Below, one piece after another: positions 9,164 through 21,675 of a stretch of DNA of 22,379 bases. The translations under genes and the position numbers were made by a program. The notes beneath the pieces were generated by a model. That model was given only the letters and a program-made list of their open reading frames with translations. It was not told the origin of the DNA and did not search any database. Location of the stretch: positions 1 through 22,379 of IMG/VR virus record IMGVR_UViG_3300011013_000109. The stretch is one strand, 5' to 3'. Position 1 is the first letter of the stretch. Every line of letters starts with the position of its first letter. The DNA comes from a virus.

Positions 9164-9708
9164 AATTAACCGCTGCTCAGTGTGACTACGCTGACTCAGC
9201 AGGCAAGAGACGCCACGAGTTTAATCGTGACATCGGTGCCAAGGATGCCTACGGTTTTCATGGTGACGGACTCAAGATAAACCTTGAGGGTACACGAGCA
9301 GAACTTGCGGTGGCTGTTGCTCTGCAAGTAGAGTGGATTGATTTTAGTGAAGACTATCACAGCATCGTGGCTGATGTCGGTAGCTGCTATCAGGTACGCA
9401 GCACCACACATCAGCATGGCAATCTTATCCTGCACCCCAAGGACAGGGATGACCAAGTGTTTATCCTTGTTCGGTCCCATAGATATCCTGACATGGAAAT
9501 CGGTGGGTGGGTGTATGGGCGGGATGCCAAGCAAAAGAAATACTGGGTGGATGGCAAGTACCATCCATCCTTTTCAGGGAGGGAGTGCTATCTGTACCCT
9601 GCCTCTGAATTAAAACCCATGAAAACTTTGCCCCGAGAGGTGAACGATGACGGAAGAGAAAGCTGTAGCGACAGCAGAGAAGCCAACACGTCGCAAGCGA
9701 ATTACTAA
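9145..9708 (+). CDS. Putative PD-(D/E)XK-like phage protein (GTG start)
   Basis: A 187-residue protein. The segment NLEGTRAELAVAVAL (E53 in a conserved helix), then ADVGSCYQVRSTTHQHGNLI (D77, and Q83-V-R85 in the place of the usual E-x-K) and later VFILVRSHRYPDMEIGGWVYG, follows a phage family that looks like a restriction-endonuclease fold. Having Q-V-R rather than E-V-K may mean altered or absent catalysis. It starts with GTG inside the previous gene, without a strong ribosome-binding site, so translational coupling is likely. Its last 62 bases overlap the next gene; the C-terminal tail there (RESCSDSREANTSQ) is low in complexity. Confidence 0.55.
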   Translation: MCATRIKLTAAQCDYADSAGKRRHEFNRDIGAKDAYGFHGDGLKINLEGTRAELAVAVALQVEWIDFSEDYHSIVADVGSCYQVRSTTHQHGNLILHPKDRDDQVFILVRSHRYPDMEIGGWVYGRDAKQKKYWVDGKYHPSFSGRECYLYPASELKPMKTLPREVNDDGRESCSDSREANTSQANY

Positions 9709-9961
9709 CAAGGAACTAGAGCAACGTCTGGATGCTCTAGACGAGCGTGTCTCAGCAGATCTGGAGACAGCGATGAACCTTGCACGCAACACCTCTGAGC
9801 AAATAGAGCAGGTGCAGCAGGCTCTGATAAGGGTGACTGGTCAGTGGGATGCCGAGTTAAATACCACACGTCAGGCTATTATGGAAATCGCCGGACGATT
9901 AGAGATGATAGCTACTGCTATCGGGACCGTAGTACCGCCATCGCCCCCGACCGCTGAGTGA
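9647..9961 (+). CDS. Coiled-coil protein
   Basis: A 104-residue protein. A basic start (EKPTRRKRITNKELEQRLDA) leads into a long helix with heptad-like spacing of leucine, isoleucine and alanine from about residue 20 to 95, then a proline-rich end (PPSPPTAE). Such small coiled coils in phages often act as oligomerising or scaffold-like accessory proteins, but the role here is unknown. GAGAGG lies about seven bases before the ATG. The overlap with the upstream gene is unusually long at 62 bases. Confidence 0.65.
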   Translation: MTEEKAVATAEKPTRRKRITNKELEQRLDALDERVSADLETAMNLARNTSEQIEQVQQALIRVTGQWDAELNTTRQAIMEIAGRLEMIATAIGTVVPPSPPTAE

Positions 9962-9970
9962 TGTGTGTGT

Positions 9971-10019
9971 GGGTGCCCTTGATTTGAGGTAAGTCCTTCC
10001 TTCCTTATCGGGGGCACCC
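9971..10019 (+). terminator. Weak terminator candidate
   Basis: GGGTGCCC (9971-9978) can pair with GGGCACCC (10012-10019) around a long 33-base loop, directly after the stop codon of the upstream gene. The following bases, TTCTTCATT, are T-rich but interrupted. It probably weakly terminates or attenuates the upstream transcript; the strength is uncertain. Confidence 0.4.
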
Positions 10020-10061
10020 TTCTTCATTGTAGGTCACGCCAATTATTGAAACGAGGACAAT

Positions 10062-10805
10062 ATGCTTTACGGGTATGCAACTATATTTAAGGGGCAGTTG
10101 ATTAGCGAGAAAGAGTTACAGGTTATTGAGGTAGCCGAGTTGCTCGATGAAAGTTTCGGTGGCCTGTACACAGATTCGTTCAGGGATCACACACCCCCGT
10201 GGAGTGAGCGGCCAGCAGGTGCTGTGCTCATGTCCCGACTTACTCGTGGAGACATGGTCATTGTCCCGGAGTGGAAGGATATGTTCCGGGATGCTGATGA
10301 GGTAGGCAAGGGTGCCATACGATTCAAGGAACTAGGCATAGACCTGCACTGCTTACAGATAGATGCAGCACCACGATCACCTGAGTATCAAGAGAAGGTG
10401 GAAGCGTTAGAACAGATGGCCACTATTCGCAGCCATTATGGCGGCCTGATGCGTAGACTATCTGTTGAGGAAGCAAGGCGAACGGGTGGTATCATCTCGG
10501 CACACCCACCATTGGGATGGATGCATAAGGATGGTAAGTGTTTACCATGCCGTGAAGAGATCAAGCAGTGCAATGAGATATATGAACACATCAACAAAGA
10601 GGGCCTGACTATTCAGGCAGCGTACCGTATTGCAGTAGCAGAGCAGTGGACACGTAAGTCTAATGGACGCAAGATAGGCAAGAAGACAATACCACGTATC
10701 ATTAAGGCAGTGGAGGAAGGGTTTCCTGATCGGTCAGGACGCAAGCCTGAAGGCTTTAATGTCGTCAACCGTACACGACAACACGACTCGTTTATGAACA
10801 CGTAA
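10062..10805 (+). CDS. Serine-recombinase-like protein lacking the catalytic serine
   Basis: A 247-residue protein with a resolvase-like N-terminal domain (about 1-105) and a part resembling the 'recombinase' DNA-binding domain (about 135-225). Family landmarks kept are GY at 4-5, RPAG at 50-53, L-x-x-GD-M-V-I-V at 60-68, FRDADE at 75-80, and PPLGW at 149-153. In active enzymes the first strand reads Y-x-R-V-S; here it reads YGYATIF, so the catalytic serine position holds F9 and the nearby arginine is T7. Inactive or repurposed function is therefore likely, perhaps a DNA-binding protein. ACGAGGAC precedes the ATG. It is followed by three small membrane-protein genes. Confidence 0.55.
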   Translation: MLYGYATIFKGQLISEKELQVIEVAELLDESFGGLYTDSFRDHTPPWSERPAGAVLMSRLTRGDMVIVPEWKDMFRDADEVGKGAIRFKELGIDLHCLQIDAAPRSPEYQEKVEALEQMATIRSHYGGLMRRLSVEEARRTGGIISAHPPLGWMHKDGKCLPCREEIKQCNEIYEHINKEGLTIQAAYRIAVAEQWTRKSNGRKIGKKTIPRIIKAVEEGFPDRSGRKPEGFNVVNRTRQHDSFMNT

Positions 10806-10820
10806 CTGAGGTACAATAAA

Positions 10821-11084
10821 ATGGGACGTTTAAAGAGACAGCGTCGTGAGCAGGACGCTAGTCAACCGACCGAAGCACCCTCGCCTAAAGAGAATCAGCA
10901 AGAGAACAAGCAAGAGGTTAGAGTAGAGAAGAAGTCGAGCCGATATTCCTTTAAGGTTGACCATACCAATGCTAAGGCTATGCTTCAGCAGGCGAAGGCC
11001 AACAAATGGAAGTGGCTTAGCATACTTATTGGCGCCGCTATCGCAGCATACATGGCATTCAAGTCCAAGATCTTCGGAGGTTAA
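10821..11084 (+). CDS. Small tail-anchored membrane protein
   Basis: An 87-residue protein. The first 45 residues are highly charged and low in complexity (QRREQDASQPTEAPSPKENQ, then QENKQEVRVEKK). A single hydrophobic helix lies near the C-terminus at about 65-80 (WLSILIGAAIAAYMAF) and ends with a basic cap, so the protein is probably anchored in the inner membrane with its charged part in the cytoplasm. It is followed after one base by another membrane-protein gene. A holin-associated role is possible but unproven. Only a weak GAGG lies upstream of the ATG. Confidence 0.6.
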   Translation: MGRLKRQRREQDASQPTEAPSPKENQQENKQEVRVEKKSSRYSFKVDHTNAKAMLQQAKANKWKWLSILIGAAIAAYMAFKSKIFGG

Positions 11085-11085
11085 G

Positions 11086-11304
11086 ATGGAATACTTAAAA
11101 AGTTTACTCGGTGATTTCCTGAACGCACTCAAGTCTAAGCGTGTGGTTACTACCATCGCAGGTGGGGTGCTCACAATACTTGCAGCCAAGTATGAATGGA
11201 TTCCTGCTGACAGGATTGACGACATTGCCACATTCATTGCCGCACTAGTGGTGGGAGACTCGCTACGGGCAACGAATCCAGATAAGATAACACAGGACGA
11301 ATAA
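11086..11304 (+). CDS. Small holin-like membrane protein (putative)
   Basis: A 72-residue protein starting MEYLKSLLGDFLNALKSKRV. A hydrophobic segment VVTTIAGGVLTILAA (about 20-34) is followed by YEWIPADRIDDIATFIAALV, which has a second hydrophobic stretch, and by VVGDSLRATN. The order (amphipathic N-terminal helix, hydrophobic helix, DDIATFIAALVVGDSL) is common in small phage membrane proteins encoded near lysis genes. No endolysin is visible in this window. CGGAGG lies seven bases before the ATG; the stop overlaps the next start as TAATG. Confidence 0.55.
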   Translation: MEYLKSLLGDFLNALKSKRVVTTIAGGVLTILAAKYEWIPADRIDDIATFIAALVVGDSLRATNPDKITQDE

Positions 11305-11609
11305 TGAAATCGCTTCTGGTGGCAATGGCTCCATCCCTATTCGCTGCGTCTGACGCAATAACGAACTTTGACTGGGGAACCGTGTCGGCCACTGGCCTGC
11401 TTGGCTGGTACTTATGGTACACAACTAAGGTGGTCATGCCGAAACACCAAGAGCAAATCACCACAATGCAGGACAAGTGTGCCGGTGAGTTACGTTCACA
11501 GCGTGACCACTACGAAACGCTGCTGGAAGAGCAGCAGAGTCAGCACGCTACACGGCACAAGGAAATACTCGATGCCCTCAAGCGTATTGCCGAACCACTT
11601 GACACATAG
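11304..11609 (+). CDS. Membrane-anchored coiled-coil protein
   Basis: A 101-residue protein. A hydrophobic start (MKSLLVAMAPSLFAAS) resembles a signal sequence, a second hydrophobic segment follows at about 27-42 (VSATGLLGWYLWYTT), and the remaining 60 residues form a charged helix with coiled-coil character (KCAGELRSQRDHYETLLEEQ). The layout recalls spanin or holin-partner proteins, but no lipobox or firm family match is seen. Its start shares one base with the previous stop (TAATG), so the two are translationally coupled. Its last codons contain the -35 box of the promoter at 11599-11627. Confidence 0.55.
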   Translation: MKSLLVAMAPSLFAASDAITNFDWGTVSATGLLGWYLWYTTKVVMPKHQEQITTMQDKCAGELRSQRDHYETLLEEQQSQHATRHKEILDALKRIAEPLDT

Positions 11610-11627
11610 TACCGTTAGCGGTAACAT
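11599..11627 (+). promoter_or_regulatory. Sigma70-like promoter with embedded operator
   Basis: TTGACA at 11599-11604 is a perfect -35 box. TAACAT at 11622-11627 matches the -10 consensus at four of six positions, and the spacer is exactly 17 bases. The inverted repeat TACCG-TTAG-CGGTA (11610-11623) fills the spacer and touches the -10 box, so a bound protein would block the polymerase. Transcription would begin about 11633-11635, at or next to the ATG of the HTH gene. The operator shares ACCG-N-TA-N-CGGT with the site at 242-261. Confidence 0.6.
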
Positions 11628-11634
11628 TGCAGAT

Positions 11635-11862
11635 ATGACAAAGAGAACACTTGAAGACCTGATGACAGTGCAGGAAGCCGCTGATGCATTAGGCTTGACC
11701 GTTGGACGGATCAGGCAAATGCTGAGAGCAGAAGTCATCAGGGGATTTAAGATGGGTCCACGTATGTGGGTTATACCAAAAGAAGAGGTTATTAATGCAC
11801 CATCTCGACGCAGAGGAAGGCTACGAGAGGAATCGAATGCTAGTCCTGACAAGGAAGGTTAA
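11635..11862 (+). CDS. Helix-turn-helix DNA-binding protein (MerR/excisionase-like)
   Basis: A 75-residue protein. Residues 9-55 carry the winged-helix pattern of the MerR/excisionase group: [20 protein letters not shown] forms the helix-turn-helix, and [19 protein letters not shown] gives the strand, wing and final helix. A basic tail ([10 protein letters not shown]) follows. Such proteins bind DNA as small regulators or recombination directionality factors. No ribosome-binding site precedes the ATG, and the predicted transcript start coincides with it, so a leaderless mRNA is likely. The operator in its own promoter suggests autoregulation. The gene overlaps csrA by 26 bases. Confidence 0.75.
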
Positions 11863-12025
11863 CGAAACTGTCATCATTGGAGATGACATACAGATTACCA
11901 TAGCGCAGATCCTACCTGACAGGGTACGGATCGGGATTCACGCACCGGAGAACGTAGCCGTTCATCGCAAAGAGGTGGCAGAAAAGATTGCATCTCAATT
12001 AGATGATGATGAGCATACTACGTAG
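11837..12025 (+). CDS. csrA: Phage-encoded CsrA carbon storage regulator
   Basis: A 62-residue CsrA/RsmA family protein, the usual family length. It starts [20 protein letters not shown], continues with [20 protein letters not shown], and ends in a short acidic tail. Residues central for RNA binding, L4, R6 and R44, are present. CsrA dimers bind GGA motifs in hairpin loops of mRNA leaders, usually blocking translation or changing RNA stability. GAGAGGAA precedes the ATG at 11837. Encoded by a phage, it may redirect host metabolism or control phage mRNAs. It overlaps the upstream HTH gene and the downstream alpha-CTD-like gene by 26 and 23 bases. Confidence 0.95.
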
Positions 12026-12362
12026 TGAATTCTCGATAGACCCTATCGAGGCGGAGAAAGCAGGCAAGCGTATAGCTGCTATGCTGATGCGTGGCAACTT
12101 CGAGGCAGCACATAGAATAATTTCTATGGTAGAGTTTACTGTACAGGACAAGGCAAACAGTCAGCTGTTTGACGTGCCGCTGGCACAGTCAGAACTGCCA
12201 ATAAGAACATTGAACCTGCTTGAAAGGCATGGAGTCATAACCTTTGGTGACCTGTCGGATAAGGGAGAGGAATGGATTCTCTCTTTAACTAACGCCGGTG
12301 AGGGAACGCTCGAATCAATCAGGGATGTTCTACATTACGAGTTGATGCGGCGCAAGAAGTAA
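12003..12362 (+). CDS. Protein with RNA polymerase alpha-CTD-like domain
   Basis: A 119-residue protein. Residues 58-112 resemble the C-terminal domain of the bacterial RNA polymerase alpha subunit: [20 protein letters not shown], then [20 protein letters not shown] and [13 protein letters not shown]. Set beside the E. coli domain, R68, N71, N97 and G99 fall at the places of R265, N268, N294 and G296, which contact the DNA minor groove. K298 is replaced by G101. The alpha N-terminal domain is absent; the first 55 residues form an unrelated helical part. It could bind UP-element-like DNA or sigma/activator surfaces. Three ATG codons in a row begin at 12003; the exact start is uncertain. Confidence 0.7.
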
Positions 12363-12393
12363 TGGGCACATGGACCAGTCGCAGCGAGGTCCT

Positions 12394-12645
12394 ATGCGTT
12401 ATTTCTTTGAATACTACGATTCGTTTGACGACAACGGAGACTACGTCCACCGGATTGTCACTTACTTTAAGCAAGGGGAACATTACGCATATGTGTTCAC
12501 GCCGGACACAGCATTTGCATGCATGACGCAGATCTTTTCGCATGCCATGGACAAGGACCTTAACCTGACGGTTAAAGAGGCCGAGGCAATATCAATTGTT
12601 ATGGAGGAATTAATAGATGACGAAGACTTTATTGGTGGATTGTGA
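12394..12645 (+). CDS. Small hypothetical protein
   Basis: An 83-residue acidic protein starting MRYFFEYYDSFDDNGDYVHR, with an aromatic-rich beta segment and a helical acidic C-terminus (VMEELIDDEDFIGGL). GCGAGG lies about five bases before the ATG at 12394; an in-frame ATG at 12370 has no ribosome-binding site and is the alternative. The 3' end overlaps the nuclease gene by 29 bases, and the codons for MEEL give that gene its GGAGGAA. Function unknown. Confidence 0.6.
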   Translation: MRYFFEYYDSFDDNGDYVHRIVTYFKQGEHYAYVFTPDTAFACMTQIFSHAMDKDLNLTVKEAEAISIVMEELIDDEDFIGGL

Positions 12646-13438
12646 CAGCCCCACCTACTTTGAGATGCCAGAGGTATCTAACAGCGCCATGAATACCTTT
12701 CGGGGTGAGGGGTCATGGTCTTACTACCACAAGCATGTGCTGCGTGATGTGGATTCCGGCATCAGTTCTGATGCACTACGCAAAGGCTCAGCCTTTCATG
12801 CGTACATGGAGTTCTTCCATACCGCAGATGATGACAGTGACATCGACCACTTCATCACAGTGATACCTGAAGAGATAGATGGTGAGCCTCTCAACATGAG
12901 AAAGAAGGCACACCGAGAGTATGTGGCTACCTATAAAGAACAGCCACAACCATGGGTGACACATGAGGAATTTATGGGGCTGGGCCAGATGGTCGCAGCA
13001 ATTCATGACAACCCACTAGCCTTTGGCTTGCTTGCCAAGAGGGGACAGTCCGAAATAGTAGCAACTAATAGCATCGCAGGGGTAGACTGCAAAGCTAAGG
13101 CAGACCTGTACTACCCTGACGATGGTGTCATCATTGACTTCAAGACTACCCGCGTCCATGACCCTGAGCAGTTTGCAAGGGAGTCGGTATACAAGTATGG
13201 GTATCACCATCAGGCAGCACACTACCTCGATGTGTTTGAGGCACAGAAGTTTTATATCATTGCAACTAGAAACAGTGAGCCGTTCGAGGCTCAGGTGTTT
13301 GAATTCAGTAAGGAGGTGCTCAACACAGCACGACACGAGAACGTATCAGTCCTTAAGAAGATTGCTACGTGCAATACATTTGAAAGCTGGCACACCACAG
13401 GGTGGGACAGCGTAACCTTAATCAGCACTGGAGCATAG
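12617..13438 (+). CDS. RecE-type PD-(D/E)XK exonuclease
   Basis: A 273-residue nuclease of the phage exonuclease VIII-like group. Visible motifs are GSAFHAYME (57-65), E146 in SEIVAT, CKAKADLYY with D163, and the catalytic core GVIIDFKTT with D174 and K176, followed by YGYHHQAAHYLD (194-205), the Q-x-x-x-Y motif of RecB/RecE-type enzymes. It would degrade duplex DNA from ends and leave single strands for the annealing protein encoded 10 bases downstream. ATGGAGGAA precedes the ATG. The full active site is present, so it is probably functional. Confidence 0.85.
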   Translation: MTKTLLVDCDSPTYFEMPEVSNSAMNTFRGEGSWSYYHKHVLRDVDSGISSDALRKGSAFHAYMEFFHTADDDSDIDHFITVIPEEIDGEPLNMRKKAHREYVATYKEQPQPWVTHEEFMGLGQMVAAIHDNPLAFGLLAKRGQSEIVATNSIAGVDCKAKADLYYPDDGVIIDFKTTRVHDPEQFARESVYKYGYHHQAAHYLDVFEAQKFYIIATRNSEPFEAQVFEFSKEVLNTARHENVSVLKKIATCNTFESWHTTGWDSVTLISTGA

Positions 13439-13448
13439 GGAGAACCAC

Positions 13449-14093
13449 ATGCCCACCAAATTACCTGAGGCAGGAAGCAATGCTTACAAAGACCCGATGA
13501 GTCTTTGGGAATCTGTATGCACAACCGATCCTGCCATAACTAAGCGTGTGAATCAGCGTGGTGGATTCACAGCGATTGATGCACAGGCTCAACTCAAGGA
13601 TGCCACTAAGATCTTCGGACCTTATGGTGTGCAGTGGGGCCTGCGTGAACTTAACTTTGAGTACATAACAGATGGTGAAGGCGGTATCGTAGAGGTGGCA
13701 TTGGCAGCTACATTCTTCTACCCCTATGGTTTCTTCGAGATGAGTAACGACATGCGTTACCGAGCAGGTGATGAATGCCGAAAGAAACTTATCACTGATC
13801 TCAGAAGTAAATGCCTATCAACATTAGGATTTAACTCCGATGTCTTTGAAGGTAAGTTTGATGACAATCGGTATGTTCAGAAGGCTACCAAGCAGGCAAC
13901 ACAGAAGTCTGAACTTGATGATAAGTTTGAGCGTGCATCCACTGCCATCCAAGAGGCCACGGATGATGAGCGATTAGCACAGATCATGCAGGGTGTCGAG
14001 GCGATTGCATTCGCGGACGAACAGTTGACTGTACTCAAGTCATTGTATAACAAGGCAATGGAGCGAGTGATCGGTGCAACAACAACTGTTTAA
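13449..14093 (+). CDS. Single-strand DNA annealing protein (phage recombinase)
   Basis: A 214-residue protein. Landmarks are SLWESVCTTDPAITKRVNQR (18-37), GGFTAIDAQAQLKDATKIFG (38-57), YGVQWGLRE, a beta-rich middle, KKLITDLRSKCLSTLGFNSD (112-131) and VFEGKFDDNRYV. This set marks the phage ssDNA-annealing proteins that resemble Rad52-type annealases. It would pair complementary single strands made by the upstream exonuclease. AGGGAGAA lies before the ATG. The last codons overlap the helicase gene by 20 bases, so expression is coupled. I cannot place it in an exact subfamily (Sak, RedB, RecT or Erf) by eye. Confidence 0.75.
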   Translation: MPTKLPEAGSNAYKDPMSLWESVCTTDPAITKRVNQRGGFTAIDAQAQLKDATKIFGPYGVQWGLRELNFEYITDGEGGIVEVALAATFFYPYGFFEMSNDMRYRAGDECRKKLITDLRSKCLSTLGFNSDVFEGKFDDNRYVQKATKQATQKSELDDKFERASTAIQEATDDERLAQIMQGVEAIAFADEQLTVLKSLYNKAMERVIGATTTV

Positions 14094-15699
14094 TTTTAAC
14101 ACACAGACTAAGCAGCAAGTTCCAGCAGTAGTAAGTCACACCACTCCGTCTGGATTTGTCGAGCGTCCCTACCAACAAGACGCTCGGATTGCTGTGCAGT
14201 CTGCTTTTGAAACTGTGGACTCAACCATTATCGAGATGGCTACTGGTCTGGGTAAGACGGAGATCTTTACCCAGCTAATGAACCAATGGGAACACGGAAG
14301 GTGCCTCGTCATTGCACCACAAATAACCCTTGTATCTCAAGCGGCGAAGAAGATACAGAAGCGAACCGGTATTCTCCCCGGGATTGAGCAGGCCCATAAC
14401 TGGTCTGATGAAACTCCATGGGGGCGTAGTAAGTTTGTCGTGGCCAGTAAGGACACACTCTCACGTGGACGCTACGAACGTATTCGGGACGTTGGGTTAG
14501 TTGTGGTGGACGAGTGCCACCTCTCCATTACACGTACTTGGCAGAAGATGCTAAGTCATTTCCTTGCCGATGGTGCTAAGGTGCTGGGTGTTACTGCTAC
14601 AGCCAAGCGACACGACAAGAGAAGTATGCAGAATCTATACCAAGGATGTGCTTTTCAGTACGGCATACGCCATGGTGTAGATGACGGCTGGCTCGTCCCC
14701 GCCGAGACTAGTTGCATACAACTTGAGTCGCTTGACTTGTCCCGTGTAAGTACAGTCGGCACCACCATGGGCAGGGATTTTAATCTAAAGGAACTCAACA
14801 CCCTGCTTGAACGGTACGATACTATCTATGAGATAGCTGACGTGACTGCCAAGGAGACACGGGGGTTGAAGACAGCGATCTATTGTTCCAGTGTTGAAGA
14901 GGCTCGGATGGTGTCAGAGCGGCTGAGTGACAGCTATGGGATTCATTCAGCATGGATCTGCTCCGATACATCAAGGCTACCTGTGGAAGAAAGACATGCG
15001 GCACTCAAGTCGTTCACGGAAGACCCGAACGGTGTCACACATCTGTGCAATGTGGGAATCCTAACAACCGGATGGGACTTCCCTGAACTACAAGCCATTG
15101 TCATGGCACGTCCCACTAAGAGCCGTTCCCTGTACACCCAGATCTTTGGACGAGGCACACGTCCACTAGAGGGTGTCGTAGACTTTGCGGGTAGCTGTGC
15201 CGAGTCTCGTAAGCAGTCCATCAAGGACAGCAAGAAGCCTCGCTTCAAGATGATTGACCTTGTAGACGGTGCGTTATCACACAAGATAATGACTTCACCA
15301 AATGTTATGGAGGGTCACTTCGATATAGATGTGATCGAACGTGCTAAAGAGATCCTTGAGGATCAGACCGAGGACCTTGATGAAGCACTGGCGGAAGCTG
15401 GGAGACAGGTTCGTGAAGAGCAGATGCAGAAGGATCGGGAGGAGCAGGCACGCATAAGGGCTGAGGCACAGTACCGCAAGATGTCTGTCGACCCGTATTC
15501 TAAGGGCTTGTTCGACCCTAAGCCGAACAAGAAGAAGCGAGGAGCACGCTTCCCCTTTGGACGCTACAAGGGAACCCTCATCCGTGAAACACCTGACTGG
15601 TACTTAATAGGCTGCATGAGTGACAAGCCTAAGGTAACAACGCCTTGGCTCAAGCAAGCCATCCGCAAAGAATTAACAAGGAGAAATCATGACTTCTGA
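14074..15699 (+). CDS. Superfamily 2 helicase with C-terminal DUF3820-like domain
   Basis: A 541-residue protein starting at GTG. Helicase motifs are YQQDARIAV (motif Ia region), Walker A ATGLGKT (56-62, K61), DECH (146-149), TAT (174-176) and QIFGRGTRP (356-364, motif VI). ATP hydrolysis would drive unwinding or branch migration, as in UvsW/RadD-like enzymes. A glutamate/arginine-rich linker (about 425-470) leads to residues 493-541, starting FPFGRYKG and continuing RETPDWYL. This resembles the small DUF3820 family, usually a stand-alone protein, so this appears to be a fusion. The GTG start lies inside the annealing-protein gene, with GGAGCGAG upstream. Confidence 0.88.
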   Translation: MQQQLFNFNTQTKQQVPAVVSHTTPSGFVERPYQQDARIAVQSAFETVDSTIIEMATGLGKTEIFTQLMNQWEHGRCLVIAPQITLVSQAAKKIQKRTGILPGIEQAHNWSDETPWGRSKFVVASKDTLSRGRYERIRDVGLVVVDECHLSITRTWQKMLSHFLADGAKVLGVTATAKRHDKRSMQNLYQGCAFQYGIRHGVDDGWLVPAETSCIQLESLDLSRVSTVGTTMGRDFNLKELNTLLERYDTIYEIADVTAKETRGLKTAIYCSSVEEARMVSERLSDSYGIHSAWICSDTSRLPVEERHAALKSFTEDPNGVTHLCNVGILTTGWDFPELQAIVMARPTKSRSLYTQIFGRGTRPLEGVVDFAGSCAESRKQSIKDSKKPRFKMIDLVDGALSHKIMTSPNVMEGHFDIDVIERAKEILEDQTEDLDEALAEAGRQVREEQMQKDREEQARIRAEAQYRKMSVDPYSKGLFDPKPNKKKRGARFPFGRYKGTLIRETPDWYLIGCMSDKPKVTTPWLKQAIRKELTRRNHDF

Positions 15700-16081
15700 T
15701 ACAGAACAAGAAATCTGGTTCATGCTACTTGGGGCAGCACTAGCCAGCAAGGATGCACGTGAACGCATCTTCAAGTCACTAGAACCACACGATGCCCCTA
15801 GCCCACCAATGCAGAATGTATTTGCCTGCCTACAGCATGATGACCACGACAAGATACACGAATGCTTTCTGGATCTTGGATTCCGCACCTCGCCCAGAGG
15901 TTCTATCCTCGGGCAGCTAGTAGACCGACTAAGAGATCACATCTTCCAATCAAGCGTTAAGAAGAAAATGTTCCTTCTGTCCCATTCCACAGGAATCGAC
16001 AAGAGGCACATGAAAGAAACTCTAAAGAAAATACTTGACGATTTGGAGGATTCAGAGGATGATGATGCAGAGGGTAACTGA
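15689..16081 (+). CDS. Putative DnaB N-terminal-like domain protein
   Basis: A 130-residue protein. The first 65 residues, including EQEIWFMLLGAALASKDARE and later FKSLEPHDAPSPPMQNVFAC, follow the pattern of the N-terminal helical domain of replicative DnaB helicase (E-x-x-x-LLGA..., a proline before a short helix, then a conserved F near a histidine or proline). No ATPase domain follows. The C-terminal half is basic then acidic (KKKMFLL and DLEDSEDDDAEGN). It might compete for or recruit host primase or helicase. CAAGGAG lies about seven bases upstream; it overlaps the helicase gene by 11 bases. Domain call is by eye and modest. Confidence 0.45.
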   Translation: MTSDTEQEIWFMLLGAALASKDARERIFKSLEPHDAPSPPMQNVFACLQHDDHDKIHECFLDLGFRTSPRGSILGQLVDRLRDHIFQSSVKKKMFLLSHSTGIDKRHMKETLKKILDDLEDSEDDDAEGN

Positions 16082-18566: not shown

Positions 18567-19858
18567 TGGCAACTGTAACAACTAGTATTGGTACTAATAC
18601 AAGCATCGACACTGAAACACCTAGCAGTGGCTCAGGCTCCAATCCATACACAGTAGCATTTGGCACAGACCCAAGTGGTGTTAGCGTTGGCGACTCCGTG
18701 CATTTCGACAATGGGATGGGCACTGTATATGTATATCTAGTTACGGGCATATCTGGCAGTGACTACACGCTCAAGTGGATATCGGGTGGGATGGGTGCAA
18801 CAAACCCATATGGCATTACAGACATGTCATATAGCCAAGCAGCGGGCGTGTTCAAACGCACTTACAGCACTATCAGTGCATGGGAGAGCGACCTAGATAA
18901 TACGAGTTATTACTCATCAAGCGATCATGCTGTCGGTGAGGCTTACGACGACTCCGTTTTTGATGAATATATAGTCATCGACAGCGGAGGCACGGTTGGC
19001 CTATCGTCAGTCAAATTGACCGTGCCTGAATCTGAGCGACATGATGGTACAGCAGGCACGGGTTCGAGGGTTGCATACACGGGCAGCCAAAGCAGTTCAT
19101 TTAGAATCCGTCGGAGTCAGTGTACCGTGGAATGGATTGAACTGGATCTCACTGGCTGCGGATCAGCGGTTTCGGCTGGCTTAAACCTTGGATCAAATTC
19201 AACCCAAGACGTTTATGCTACAAATAATATCATTCATGGCATAACGACTCAGAGCACCCACATCCATGGGATCTATGTCTGGGGAACAGGTGATTCGTCA
19301 AACACTCGGCATGTGATGAATAATCTGGTCTACAACATAGACAACTCATCCACCTCGAAAGACGCTTCGGGCATAACCATAGCGTCCGGAAACTGGGGCG
19401 TATATCTGTACAACAATACGGTCTACAACGTAATAGTAGACGGAGGCGATACAGCCCACGGTATCTCAGTTAACGATACAGACTCGTTCCTTAAAAATAA
19501 CATATCAGCTAGAGCGTCAGATGACTGCTTTGGAGAATCTGAATTTTCTGGATCTACCCATGACTACAACCTCAGCACCGACGCGACTGCAACCGGAACA
19601 AACTCTGTCACTGGAGAAGCATACGGAGACCTGTTCGTTAATGATACGGCAGGTAGTGAAGACCTTCACTTGAAGGCAGGTGCCGATGCCATCGGGGCCG
19701 GAACAGACTTAGGAACATCGCCAACTAATGTTAATATAGATATTGACGGACGTGATCGTGATTCATCTGGTGACACGTGGGACATTGGAGCCGATCAAAC
19801 AGCGTCAGCCTCAGTGAGCGTACCGATAGCCATCTTTTTCACAGGAATGAGTACATAA
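18566..19858 (+). CDS. Putative right-handed beta-helix tail/appendage protein
   Basis: A 430-residue protein, low in cysteine and very rich in serine, threonine, glycine and aspartate. Residues about 175-345 consist of short repeated strands with N-N, G-I and hydrophobic ladders (for example TNNIIHGITTQSTHIHGIYV and NNLVYNIDNSS), the pattern of a right-handed parallel beta-helix. The start, VGDSVHFDNGMGTVYVYLVT, looks like a small beta-sandwich. Such proteins form tail fibres or spikes that bind host surface sugars. A short hydrophobic end (VPIAIFFTGMST) is unusual. Transcription and translation are coupled to the flanking genes through TAATG overlaps. Confidence 0.65.
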   Translation: MATVTTSIGTNTSIDTETPSSGSGSNPYTVAFGTDPSGVSVGDSVHFDNGMGTVYVYLVTGISGSDYTLKWISGGMGATNPYGITDMSYSQAAGVFKRTYSTISAWESDLDNTSYYSSSDHAVGEAYDDSVFDEYIVIDSGGTVGLSSVKLTVPESERHDGTAGTGSRVAYTGSQSSSFRIRRSQCTVEWIELDLTGCGSAVSAGLNLGSNSTQDVYATNNIIHGITTQSTHIHGIYVWGTGDSSNTRHVMNNLVYNIDNSSTSKDASGITIASGNWGVYLYNNTVYNVIVDGGDTAHGISVNDTDSFLKNNISARASDDCFGESEFSGSTHDYNLSTDATATGTNSVTGEAYGDLFVNDTAGSEDLHLKAGADAIGAGTDLGTSPTNVNIDIDGRDRDSSGDTWDIGADQTASASVSVPIAIFFTGMST

Positions 19859-21675
19859 TGGCAACTAGAAACGTAGAAATGACAATTACCTATCTCGGAT
19901 GGGATACCTCTGCTAATGCAGGCAAGACCGGGGATGTAGGAAATCATACGCTGCGATGGGTTAAAGATGGTACATCTTCTGCACCCACCAATAGCGCCGC
20001 TGAGGTTGATGCTACAAATGCACCCGGCATATATAAGATCACAATGACAGCCACTGAAACAGACGCCAATATTGGTGTACTGTGTGGCAAAAGCAGCACT
20101 GCCAATATAAGCATTGTTCCAATCACACTACAGTTTGAGAGACTACCCGACGCTGATCCCGCTGCTAATGGTGGACTCCCAACAGTGGATGCCAGTAATC
20201 ATGTGAATGGTGTACAAGATACACTGAGTGTCAATGTTACGACCATTGAAGGTTCTGACGCAACGGATCAAATTAATGCAGCATGTGACACTGCACTTTC
20301 TGATTACGATGCTCCAACCAAAGCAGAACTAGATTCAGCCTTTACGGAAATCAAAGGTGGCACTTGGTCCTCATCTACCGATACGCTAGAAGCTATCAGA
20401 AATAGAGGTGATGCGGCATGGATAACTGCTAGCCCACCAACAGCAGCAGCCATCGCTGATGCCGTATGGGACGAAGCAACTAGTGGTCATACATCATCAG
20501 GAACATTTGGTGAGCAAGTTAAAACAGACATTGATGATATTCTTGCTGACACAGCAGAGATAGGTTCAGCGGGTGCTGGACTTACCGCAGTCCCGTGGAA
20601 TAGTGCATGGGATGCTGAAGTGCAAAGCGAGTGCAATGATGCACTTGTGGCGATAGGGTTAGATCACCTTGTAAGCGCATCGGTAGCAGGGTCTGACGTT
20701 GTGGATGACTCAATCATTGCTAAGCTAGTCAGTAAAGAAAGTACGGCAGACTGGGATGACTTCGCTAACACAACGGACAGCCTGCAAGCTATCAGGGATC
20801 GAGGAGATACATCATGGACAACCGGCGGTGGCGGAGGAAGCTGCCCATCGGCTGCGGATATTGCCGATGCTGTATGGGACGAAGCTACGTCTGGGCATAC
20901 TAGCAGTGGTTCGTATGGTAAGGCATTGTCTGATATCCTTACGGACACAGCTGTTATCGGTGCAGCAGGAGCCGGTCTCACTGCGGTCCCATGGAATAGT
21001 TCGTGGGATGCGGAGGTACAAAGCGAGTGTAATGATGCTTTAGTTGCTCTCGGTCTTGATCACCTTATCAGTGCATCAGTAGCTGGTAGCGATGTGGTTG
21101 ATGACTCAATCATTGCCAAGTTGGTTAGCAAGGAAAGCACAGCTGATTGGGATGACTTTGTAAACACGACTGATAGCCTTCAGGCCCTTAGAGATAGGGG
21201 TGACGCATCATGGATAACCGGCGGAGGTGGAAGTGCTGCTGACATTGCGGATGCAGTCTGGAACGAAGCTGCCGGAGATCACACCAGTTCAGGATCGTTC
21301 GGCAAGTATGTCGCAGACATCCTGACAGATACAGCGGTCATCGGAGCCAATGGTGCTGGCCTGTCAGCGATACCGTGGAACAGTGCTTGGGACACAGAAG
21401 TTGAGAGCGAAGTCAATGACGCACTTGTGGCTTATGATCCCCCGACTAAAGCTGAGATGGATGGCATGTGGACATCAACACAGACAGAGAGTTACGCAGC
21501 GGATGGCGCAGAGGCAACACCTGCACAGCTGCTATACATGATCCTTTGTGCAGTCAGCGAGTTCTCGATATCTGGCACGACGATCACTGGCAAGGAGGTA
21601 GACGGCAGCACGACTGCTATGACTTGGACAATCAATGATGCAACCAGCCCAACCAGTAGAACAAGGGCTACCTAA
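19858..21675 (+). CDS. Repeat-containing virion/appendage protein
   Basis: A 605-residue protein. Residues about 1-95 are beta-rich, with LGWDTSANAGKTGDVGNHTL and APGIYKITMTATETDANIG. From about 198 there are two full copies and one partial copy of a 128-136-residue repeat, beginning with ADAVWDEATSGHTSSG and including AGLTAVPWNSAWDAEVQSE and a glycine linker (GGGGG). The C-terminus returns to beta-rich sequence. The composition and place next to a beta-helix protein fit a fibre, appendage or neck protein. No family is recognised with certainty. Starts at ATG sharing a base with the previous stop. Confidence 0.65.
   Translation: MATRNVEMTITYLGWDTSANAGKTGDVGNHTLRWVKDGTSSAPTNSAAEVDATNAPGIYKITMTATETDANIGVLCGKSSTANISIVPITLQFERLPDADPAANGGLPTVDASNHVNGVQDTLSVNVTTIEGSDATDQINAACDTALSDYDAPTKAELDSAFTEIKGGTWSSSTDTLEAIRNRGDAAWITASPPTAAAIADAVWDEATSGHTSSGTFGEQVKTDIDDILADTAEIGSAGAGLTAVPWNSAWDAEVQSECNDALVAIGLDHLVSASVAGSDVVDDSIIAKLVSKESTADWDDFANTTDSLQAIRDRGDTSWTTGGGGGSCPSAADIADAVWDEATSGHTSSGSYGKALSDILTDTAVIGAAGAGLTAVPWNSSWDAEVQSECNDALVALGLDHLISASVAGSDVVDDSIIAKLVSKESTADWDDFVNTTDSLQALRDRGDASWITGGGGSAADIADAVWNEAAGDHTSSGSFGKYVADILTDTAVIGANGAGLSAIPWNSAWDTEVESEVNDALVAYDPPTKAEMDGMWTSTQTESYAADGAEATPAQLLYMILCAVSEFSISGTTITGKEVDGSTTAMTWTINDATSPTSRTRAT
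20449..21447 (+). repeat. Internal tandem protein-coding repeats
   Basis: Copy A about 20449-20856, copy B about 20857-21240 and partial copy C about 21241-21447. A and B agree at most amino acids, for example DSIIAKLVSKESTADWDDF in both. Over 30 shared residues around SASVAGSDVV I counted 21 differences in 90 bases without any amino acid change. The repeats therefore diverged long ago under strong selection on the protein. Confidence 0.8.

Follow-up and report, generated by a model that had tools for sequence, protein, structure and literature searches.

Is a phage that encodes, in three overlapping genes, a helix-turn-helix (HTH) DNA-binding protein, CsrA and a protein with the C-terminal domain of the RNA polymerase alpha subunit (αCTD) equipped with a cassette that redirects both transcription and translation in its host? 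The question is raised by a locus in the 22,379-base IMG/VR virus record IMGVR_UViG_3300011013_000109 (the window, i.e., the whole stretch of DNA analysed here), for which the initial annotation had proposed such a cassette.

Three overlapping genes are maintained by purifying selection

The coding features of the locus are as follows.

11635..11862, + strand: excisionase-family (HTH_17) helix-turn-helix DNA-binding protein, 75 aa (PF12728, 1.6e-7; TIGR01764, 1.4e-8, both over cut-off)
11837..12025, + strand: CsrA, 62 aa (PF02599, 1.4e-22; NF002469 equivalog, 79.3 bits, cut-off 73)
12003..12362, + strand: lone αCTD-domain protein, 119 aa (PF03118, 5.7e-8; 32.8 bits, cut-off 23.8)
12147..12335, + strand: αCTD domain proper, residues 49-111 (PF03118 match)

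All three genes lie where they had been annotated, and the reported overlaps of 26 bases between the HTH gene and csrA and of 23 bases between csrA and the αCTD gene are both present and kept in two haplotypes of the phage. The second overlap is 20 bases if the αCTD gene starts at 12006; this start, or 12009, is probable because the first ATG (12003) is not kept in a relative. The ATG of csrA is located at 11837, downstream of the beginning of the mechanical ORF (11795), and is preceded by the Shine-Dalgarno sequence GAGAGGA (11825-11831). Its product deserves the name of canonical CsrA that it had been given, with both profile matches listed above, and its translation retains L4, R6, V42 and R44, which we take to be the RNA-contact residues of CsrA. 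Comparison with the diverged haplotype L003 gives dN/dS values of ~0.02 (CsrA), ~0.04 (αCTD protein) and ~0.2 (HTH protein), and these low values indicate that the trio consists of real genes under purifying selection. Over window positions 11837-12645, synonymous divergence from L003 is ~0.9-1.4 in csrA and the αCTD gene and 0.08 in the next gene (12370-12645), a drop that is a sign of recombination between phage haplotypes.

The first protein had been described as MerR/excisionase-like, and it is the second part of this description that stands. The excisionase-family profiles TIGR01764 and HTH_17 score 35.0 bits (cut-off 28.8) and 31.9 bits (cut-off 27), respectively, and the protein also matches a PHROG excisionase, whereas MerR_1 falls below cut-off (E=0.31); the excisionase-like label is thus the better supported by these profiles. 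Taken literally, this label would turn the locus into a module for excision or lysogeny control rather than for lytic takeover, in keeping with the TIGR01764 and PHROG matches and with a weak resolvase/integrase-like match of the protein encoded at 10062-10805 (Pfam 0.0015; PHROG 0.0057), which is the one piece of evidence for an integrase partner around the HTH gene. However, the Pfam match is below cut-off, no attachment site or prophage was seen, and HTH_17 proteins are often general DNA-binding proteins, so that we consider a role in excision highly improbable.

The trio heads a recombination and replication operon

The recognised genes of the window are all on the + strand, and include those for a single-stranded DNA-binding protein (SSB), a RecE-type exonuclease, a recombination-associated protein, a DNA helicase, a nuclease and a RusA resolvase. 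The HTH-CsrA-αCTD trio heads a recombination/replication operon of a tailed phage. Positions 10000-16000 gave no DNA match in the phage DNA collection. One viral contig, 3300009481_002088, is 99.9% identical to the window, and the further near copies (3300020410_000499, 3300020410_000525, 3300037962_000346 and 3300037962_000129) are viral contigs as well. Rfam and tRNA scans detected nothing. Elsewhere in the window, the first long ORF (283-1185) has a weak sigma-factor/HTH match towards its C-terminal end (4.7e-4 for a PHROG sigma factor; HTH_38 stays under its cut-off), and direct repeats of ~310 bp (~75% identical, IADAVWDEATSGHTSSG units) were found at 20526-21431, inside a 632-aa ORF (19777-21675).

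A candidate operator and putative translational coupling

The following putative regulatory elements accompany the genes.

11599..11627, + strand: promoter-like TTGACA-17-TAACAT directly before the HTH gene (10/12 positions)
11610..11623, no strand: palindrome TACCGTTAGCGGTA, candidate operator inside the promoter, kept in L002 and L003
245..258, no strand: second instance of the palindrome, TACCGATAACGGTA (contained in ACTACCGATAACGGTAGT), ahead of the window's first gene (283-1185)
11792..11841, + strand: 50-nt stretch identical in both haplotypes, possible CsrA leader site (longest invariant run in the trio)

The promoter-like sequence is the best of six promoter matches in 9600-13500, where the number of matches is not above that of shuffled sequences, and both of its hexamers are kept in L003 and L002. 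The palindrome TACCGTTAGCGGTA occupies the promoter spacer and extends into the -10 hexamer. The pattern TACCGNNNNCGGTA occurs twice in the window, with 0 occurrences expected from 100 shuffles and no shuffle holding such a pair; the pair is suggestive only, because it was the first copy that had led to the choice of this pattern. Lying before two operons, TACCGNNNNCGGTA may represent a shared operator.

No Shine-Dalgarno sequence of its own was found for the αCTD gene, which overlaps csrA; given that csrA has a clear one, this arrangement fits translational coupling. The invariant stretch holds two AGAGGA motifs (11812-11817 and 11826-11831) before the csrA start, and statistical support for it is borderline (p=0.012; p=0.053 when the overlap is left out). 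A two-GGA csrA leader as a special site of autoregulation was considered and rejected, since pairs of GGA also precede other genes of the same phage.

The gene order was found in one phage type only

All three genes occur in the same order in three other contigs (G001, G002 and G003), all of them close relatives. The initial annotation had looked to relatives for conservation of the gene order; it is indeed kept there, but these contigs are one 99.9% identical copy and two members of a diverged haplotype group of the same phage type, in which 111 of the 728 bases of the trio differ (one contig compared). In bounded searches, the HTH-CsrA-αCTD order was not found in unrelated phages. The αCTD was absent from 9/9 other csrA-bearing viral records and from the vicinity of all 65 genomic csrA loci, and CsrA was absent from 80/80 other αCTD-bearing viral records, in searches based on short peptide patterns in which many of the records were fragments. 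The αCTD protein had no match among plasmids or in a scan of genome contigs. Because the order was found only in close relatives, the trio looks like a lineage-specific juxtaposition and not a shared cassette. The proposed new cassette is thereby narrowed to a single phage lineage.

The same distribution is open to a plainer explanation, in which an HTH regulator, an acquired csrA and an αCTD gene are three ordinary phage genes that became neighbours by chance and have no joint function. Both the limitation of the trio to one phage type and the occurrence of csrA and αCTD genes elsewhere, each without the other, agree with this. Against it stand the two gene overlaps, which are kept in both haplotypes (yet tight overlap is common in phages), the shared promoter, and the reliance of the αCTD gene on a start region without its own Shine-Dalgarno sequence. 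On balance, we regard chance proximity as rather unlikely.

The αCTD protein has a predicted αCTD fold and an altered DNA-contact surface

That the third protein has an RNA polymerase αCTD-like domain agrees with its PF03118 score, and the equivalents of R265, N268, N294 and G296, already noted as retained, are R68, N71, N97 and G99 of the protein. The equivalent of the sigma-contacting E261 is also kept. Five positions are changed (C269->L, K297->E, K298->G, S299->T and E302->S), so that four residues of the DNA-contact set R265/N268/N294/G296/K298/S299/E302 are kept, while S299 is T, K298 is G and E302 is S. Judging from these residues, part of the DNA-contact surface appears to be lost, and with substitutions at K298, E302 and further contact positions, DNA binding may be weak. 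It should be noted that residue conservation within the comparison set of αCTDs is overstated, because the patterns with which this set was found include some of the positions in question.

Structure prediction of the 119-residue protein had been suggested as a check and gives an αCTD fold. The best Foldseek PDB matches of an AlphaFold2 model built on a 51-row alignment are all RNA polymerase alpha chains, and the model superimposes on solved isolated αCTDs with an rmsd of about 0.8-1.4 Å over 54-60 residues; it is not independent of the sequence match, because the alignment consists of other αCTDs. A model from 2 sequences (pLDDT 69) had no PDB match and did not recover the αCTD fold. The protein is not itself an RpoA: it is 119 aa long, has no N-terminal assembly domain and scores 28.6 bits with TIGR02027 (cut-off 227.8).

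The phage αCTD is related to a tandem-αCTD protein of Planctomycetota

The phage αCTD protein has matches at E 1e-3 in 262 of the 294 Planctomycetota genomes; at E 1e-6, neither the Opitutaceae phylum (115 genomes) nor a gammaproteobacterial phylum (200 genomes) gave a match. The best planctomycete matches are mostly in proteins of ~430-600 aa, and those examined consist of TPRs and two αCTDs and are not rpoA. Profile scores on the phage αCTD are 42.3 bits for the first αCTD of this tandem protein (copy 1), 22.7 bits for planctomycete rpoA and 19.1 bits for copy 2. The difference between copy 1 and rpoA is thus +19.6 for the window, compared to a mean of -11.7 for 49 other viral αCTDs (sd 5.2, max 2.8).

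A first tree included divergent αCTDs of Microbacterium phages, and long branches met; the analysis was repeated without these and without the longest other branches. In this careful tree, the phage αCTD and copy 1 form one clade (support 99/94). Nesting of the phage inside copy 1 is not significant, and a clade of copy 1 alone is not rejected (p-AU 0.30). An RpoA origin of the phage αCTD is disfavoured, since both profiles and tree favour copy 1. Based on these comparisons, which rest on a short domain, a long phage branch and three sampled phyla, the phage αCTD appears to descend from the TPR/tandem-αCTD protein of Planctomycetota and not from RNA polymerase itself. The TPR region and the second αCTD are absent from the phage protein, which has one αCTD only. 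The idea that its N-terminal hairpin is a leftover of the host TPR is unsupported, as 667/1000 shuffles score as high.

These results bear on the mimicry of RNA polymerase alpha that the initial annotation had implied. In its full form, the αCTD protein would replace or compete with the host αCTD at UP elements or activators, and would constitute, together with CsrA, a dedicated takeover cassette. Such mimicry is compatible with the predicted fold and the five retained residue equivalents (R265, N268, N294, G296 and E261), and phages attack the αCTD elsewhere (T4 Alt/ModA, PMC2988021; Rac, PMC7552054). Nevertheless, the domain scores ~20 bits higher with the planctomycete tandem protein than with rpoA of the same phylum, K298 and E302 are lost, and the gene order was seen in one phage type only, which makes this explanation improbable.

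Given the kinship of the αCTD with the Planctomycetota tandem protein, a planctomycete host is likely. A search of 392 planctomycete genomes for the phage helicase gave no close relative (best 31% identity). CsrA was also considered as a host marker and is not diagnostic, with identities reaching 64% in Planctomycetota, likewise in a Spirochaete, and 61% in Riflebacteria.

The TPR and tandem-αCTD protein is distinct from rpoA and has a wide distribution in Planctomycetota (L206-L225 and others; e.g., L207:1240-2547 and L211:1174-2703), and most genomes of a loose sample of this phylum had both rpoA and the tandem protein. We found no publication on this protein, nor any name for it. Other short planctomycete αCTD proteins exist besides these two, some with an N-terminal HTH-like part (L199, L200 and L202-L204).

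Proposed function of the trio

We favour, with a little less than even confidence, a control module that regulates itself and in which the αCTD protein binds, or else blocks, partners of the tandem-αCTD protein of the host. The trio would be the promoter-proximal control module of the recombination/replication operon, in a phage whose host is probably a planctomycete. The HTH protein would time expression, most likely by binding to the palindrome that lies in the promoter of its own gene and perhaps to the copy at 245-258 as well. CsrA would behave like any ordinary CsrA, acting on host mRNAs and on leaders with GGA, of which its own is probably one; in this way, it could set the translation of csrA and, via coupling, that of the αCTD protein. 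The latter, which has one αCTD akin to copy 1 of the host tandem protein and no TPR part, would most likely occupy the target of the host domain, whether promoter DNA, sigma region 4 or an activator, and may either work as an adaptor at the promoters of the phage or compete with the host protein and so block it. The domain can be tied to transcription control because other phages fuse an αCTD to HTH_17, XRE or sigma region 4.

αCTD proteins in other viruses

Two 8-residue peptide patterns retrieved 97 viral αCTD relatives in IMG/VR. These are either lone proteins of short length or fusions, to sigma70 region 4 or to an XRE-type HTH plus sigma region 4; in the fecal phage contig L021 (4395-5393), the αCTD is fused with HTH_17 and sigma region 4. 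Viral contigs L099-L178 carry αCTD proteins (e.g., L136:1423-1875, L101:3566-4201 and L103:3260-4189), and among cultured phages, a few encode lone αCTD proteins, namely Goe8, Akonivirus Microbacterium phages and Zenteno07. The lone viral αCTD proteins tested against PHROG matched no family, and we found no publication on a phage αCTD protein. As αCTD regulators are frequent in viral contigs and the lone ones tested are without a PHROG family, phage annotation may be overlooking a class of potential regulators of host polymerase.

A broader scenario, which we put forward tentatively and hold to be possible but doubtful, has two parts. In the first, a Planctomycetota phage would have acquired a single αCTD from a TPR/tandem-αCTD transcription protein that is present throughout the phylum, and would combine it with CsrA and an HTH protein that binds the operator into one switch of transcription and translation. 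In the second, regulators with an αCTD, whether this stands alone or is fused to HTH_17, XRE or sigma region 4, would more widely form a type of viral transcription factor that is common but unrecognised. As far as sampled, a viral αCTD has been traced to a widespread planctomycete protein rather than to RNA polymerase. This kinship gives the planctomycete TPR/tandem-αCTD protein its first functional hint, and an uncultured phage a probable host phylum.

Comparison with known systems

The closest relative of the phage αCTD is the first αCTD of the Planctomycetota TPR/tandem-αCTD protein (~430-600 aa), from which the phage protein differs by its single αCTD, the lack of TPRs and an N-terminal part without detectable kinship. 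With the αCTD of RpoA, it has in common the Pfam family, the predicted fold and the equivalents of R265, N268, N294, G296 and E261; it is less similar to RpoA than to the tandem protein, lacks the N-terminal assembly domain and is changed at K298, E302 and other positions.

Phage αCTDs without the RpoA assembly domain are likewise found in Bacillus phage Goe8 (c00050), Microbacterium phage Mazun (gp26) and its kin, Mycobacterium phage Zenteno07 (gp68) and many IMG/VR contigs. None of these lone or fused αCTD proteins of other phages adjoins csrA, and their N-terminal parts differ from that of the window protein. The HTH_17/αCTD fusion of L021 joins two domains that the window phage holds in separate genes.

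Canonical CsrA is likewise encoded by other phages: phage CsrA/RsmA genes have been published for 30 of 2517 phage genomes (PMC7366521), and 79 phage records matched csrA here. Unlike the window phage, the other csrA-bearing viral records examined have no αCTD neighbour.

Phage action on the αCTD branch of host transcription is also known from T4 Alt/ModA, which ADP-ribosylate Arg265 in the host αCTD (PMC2988021), and from Rac, where host alpha is cleaved (PMC7552054). Whereas these are enzymes that modify or cut the host subunit, the window phage carries an αCTD of its own.
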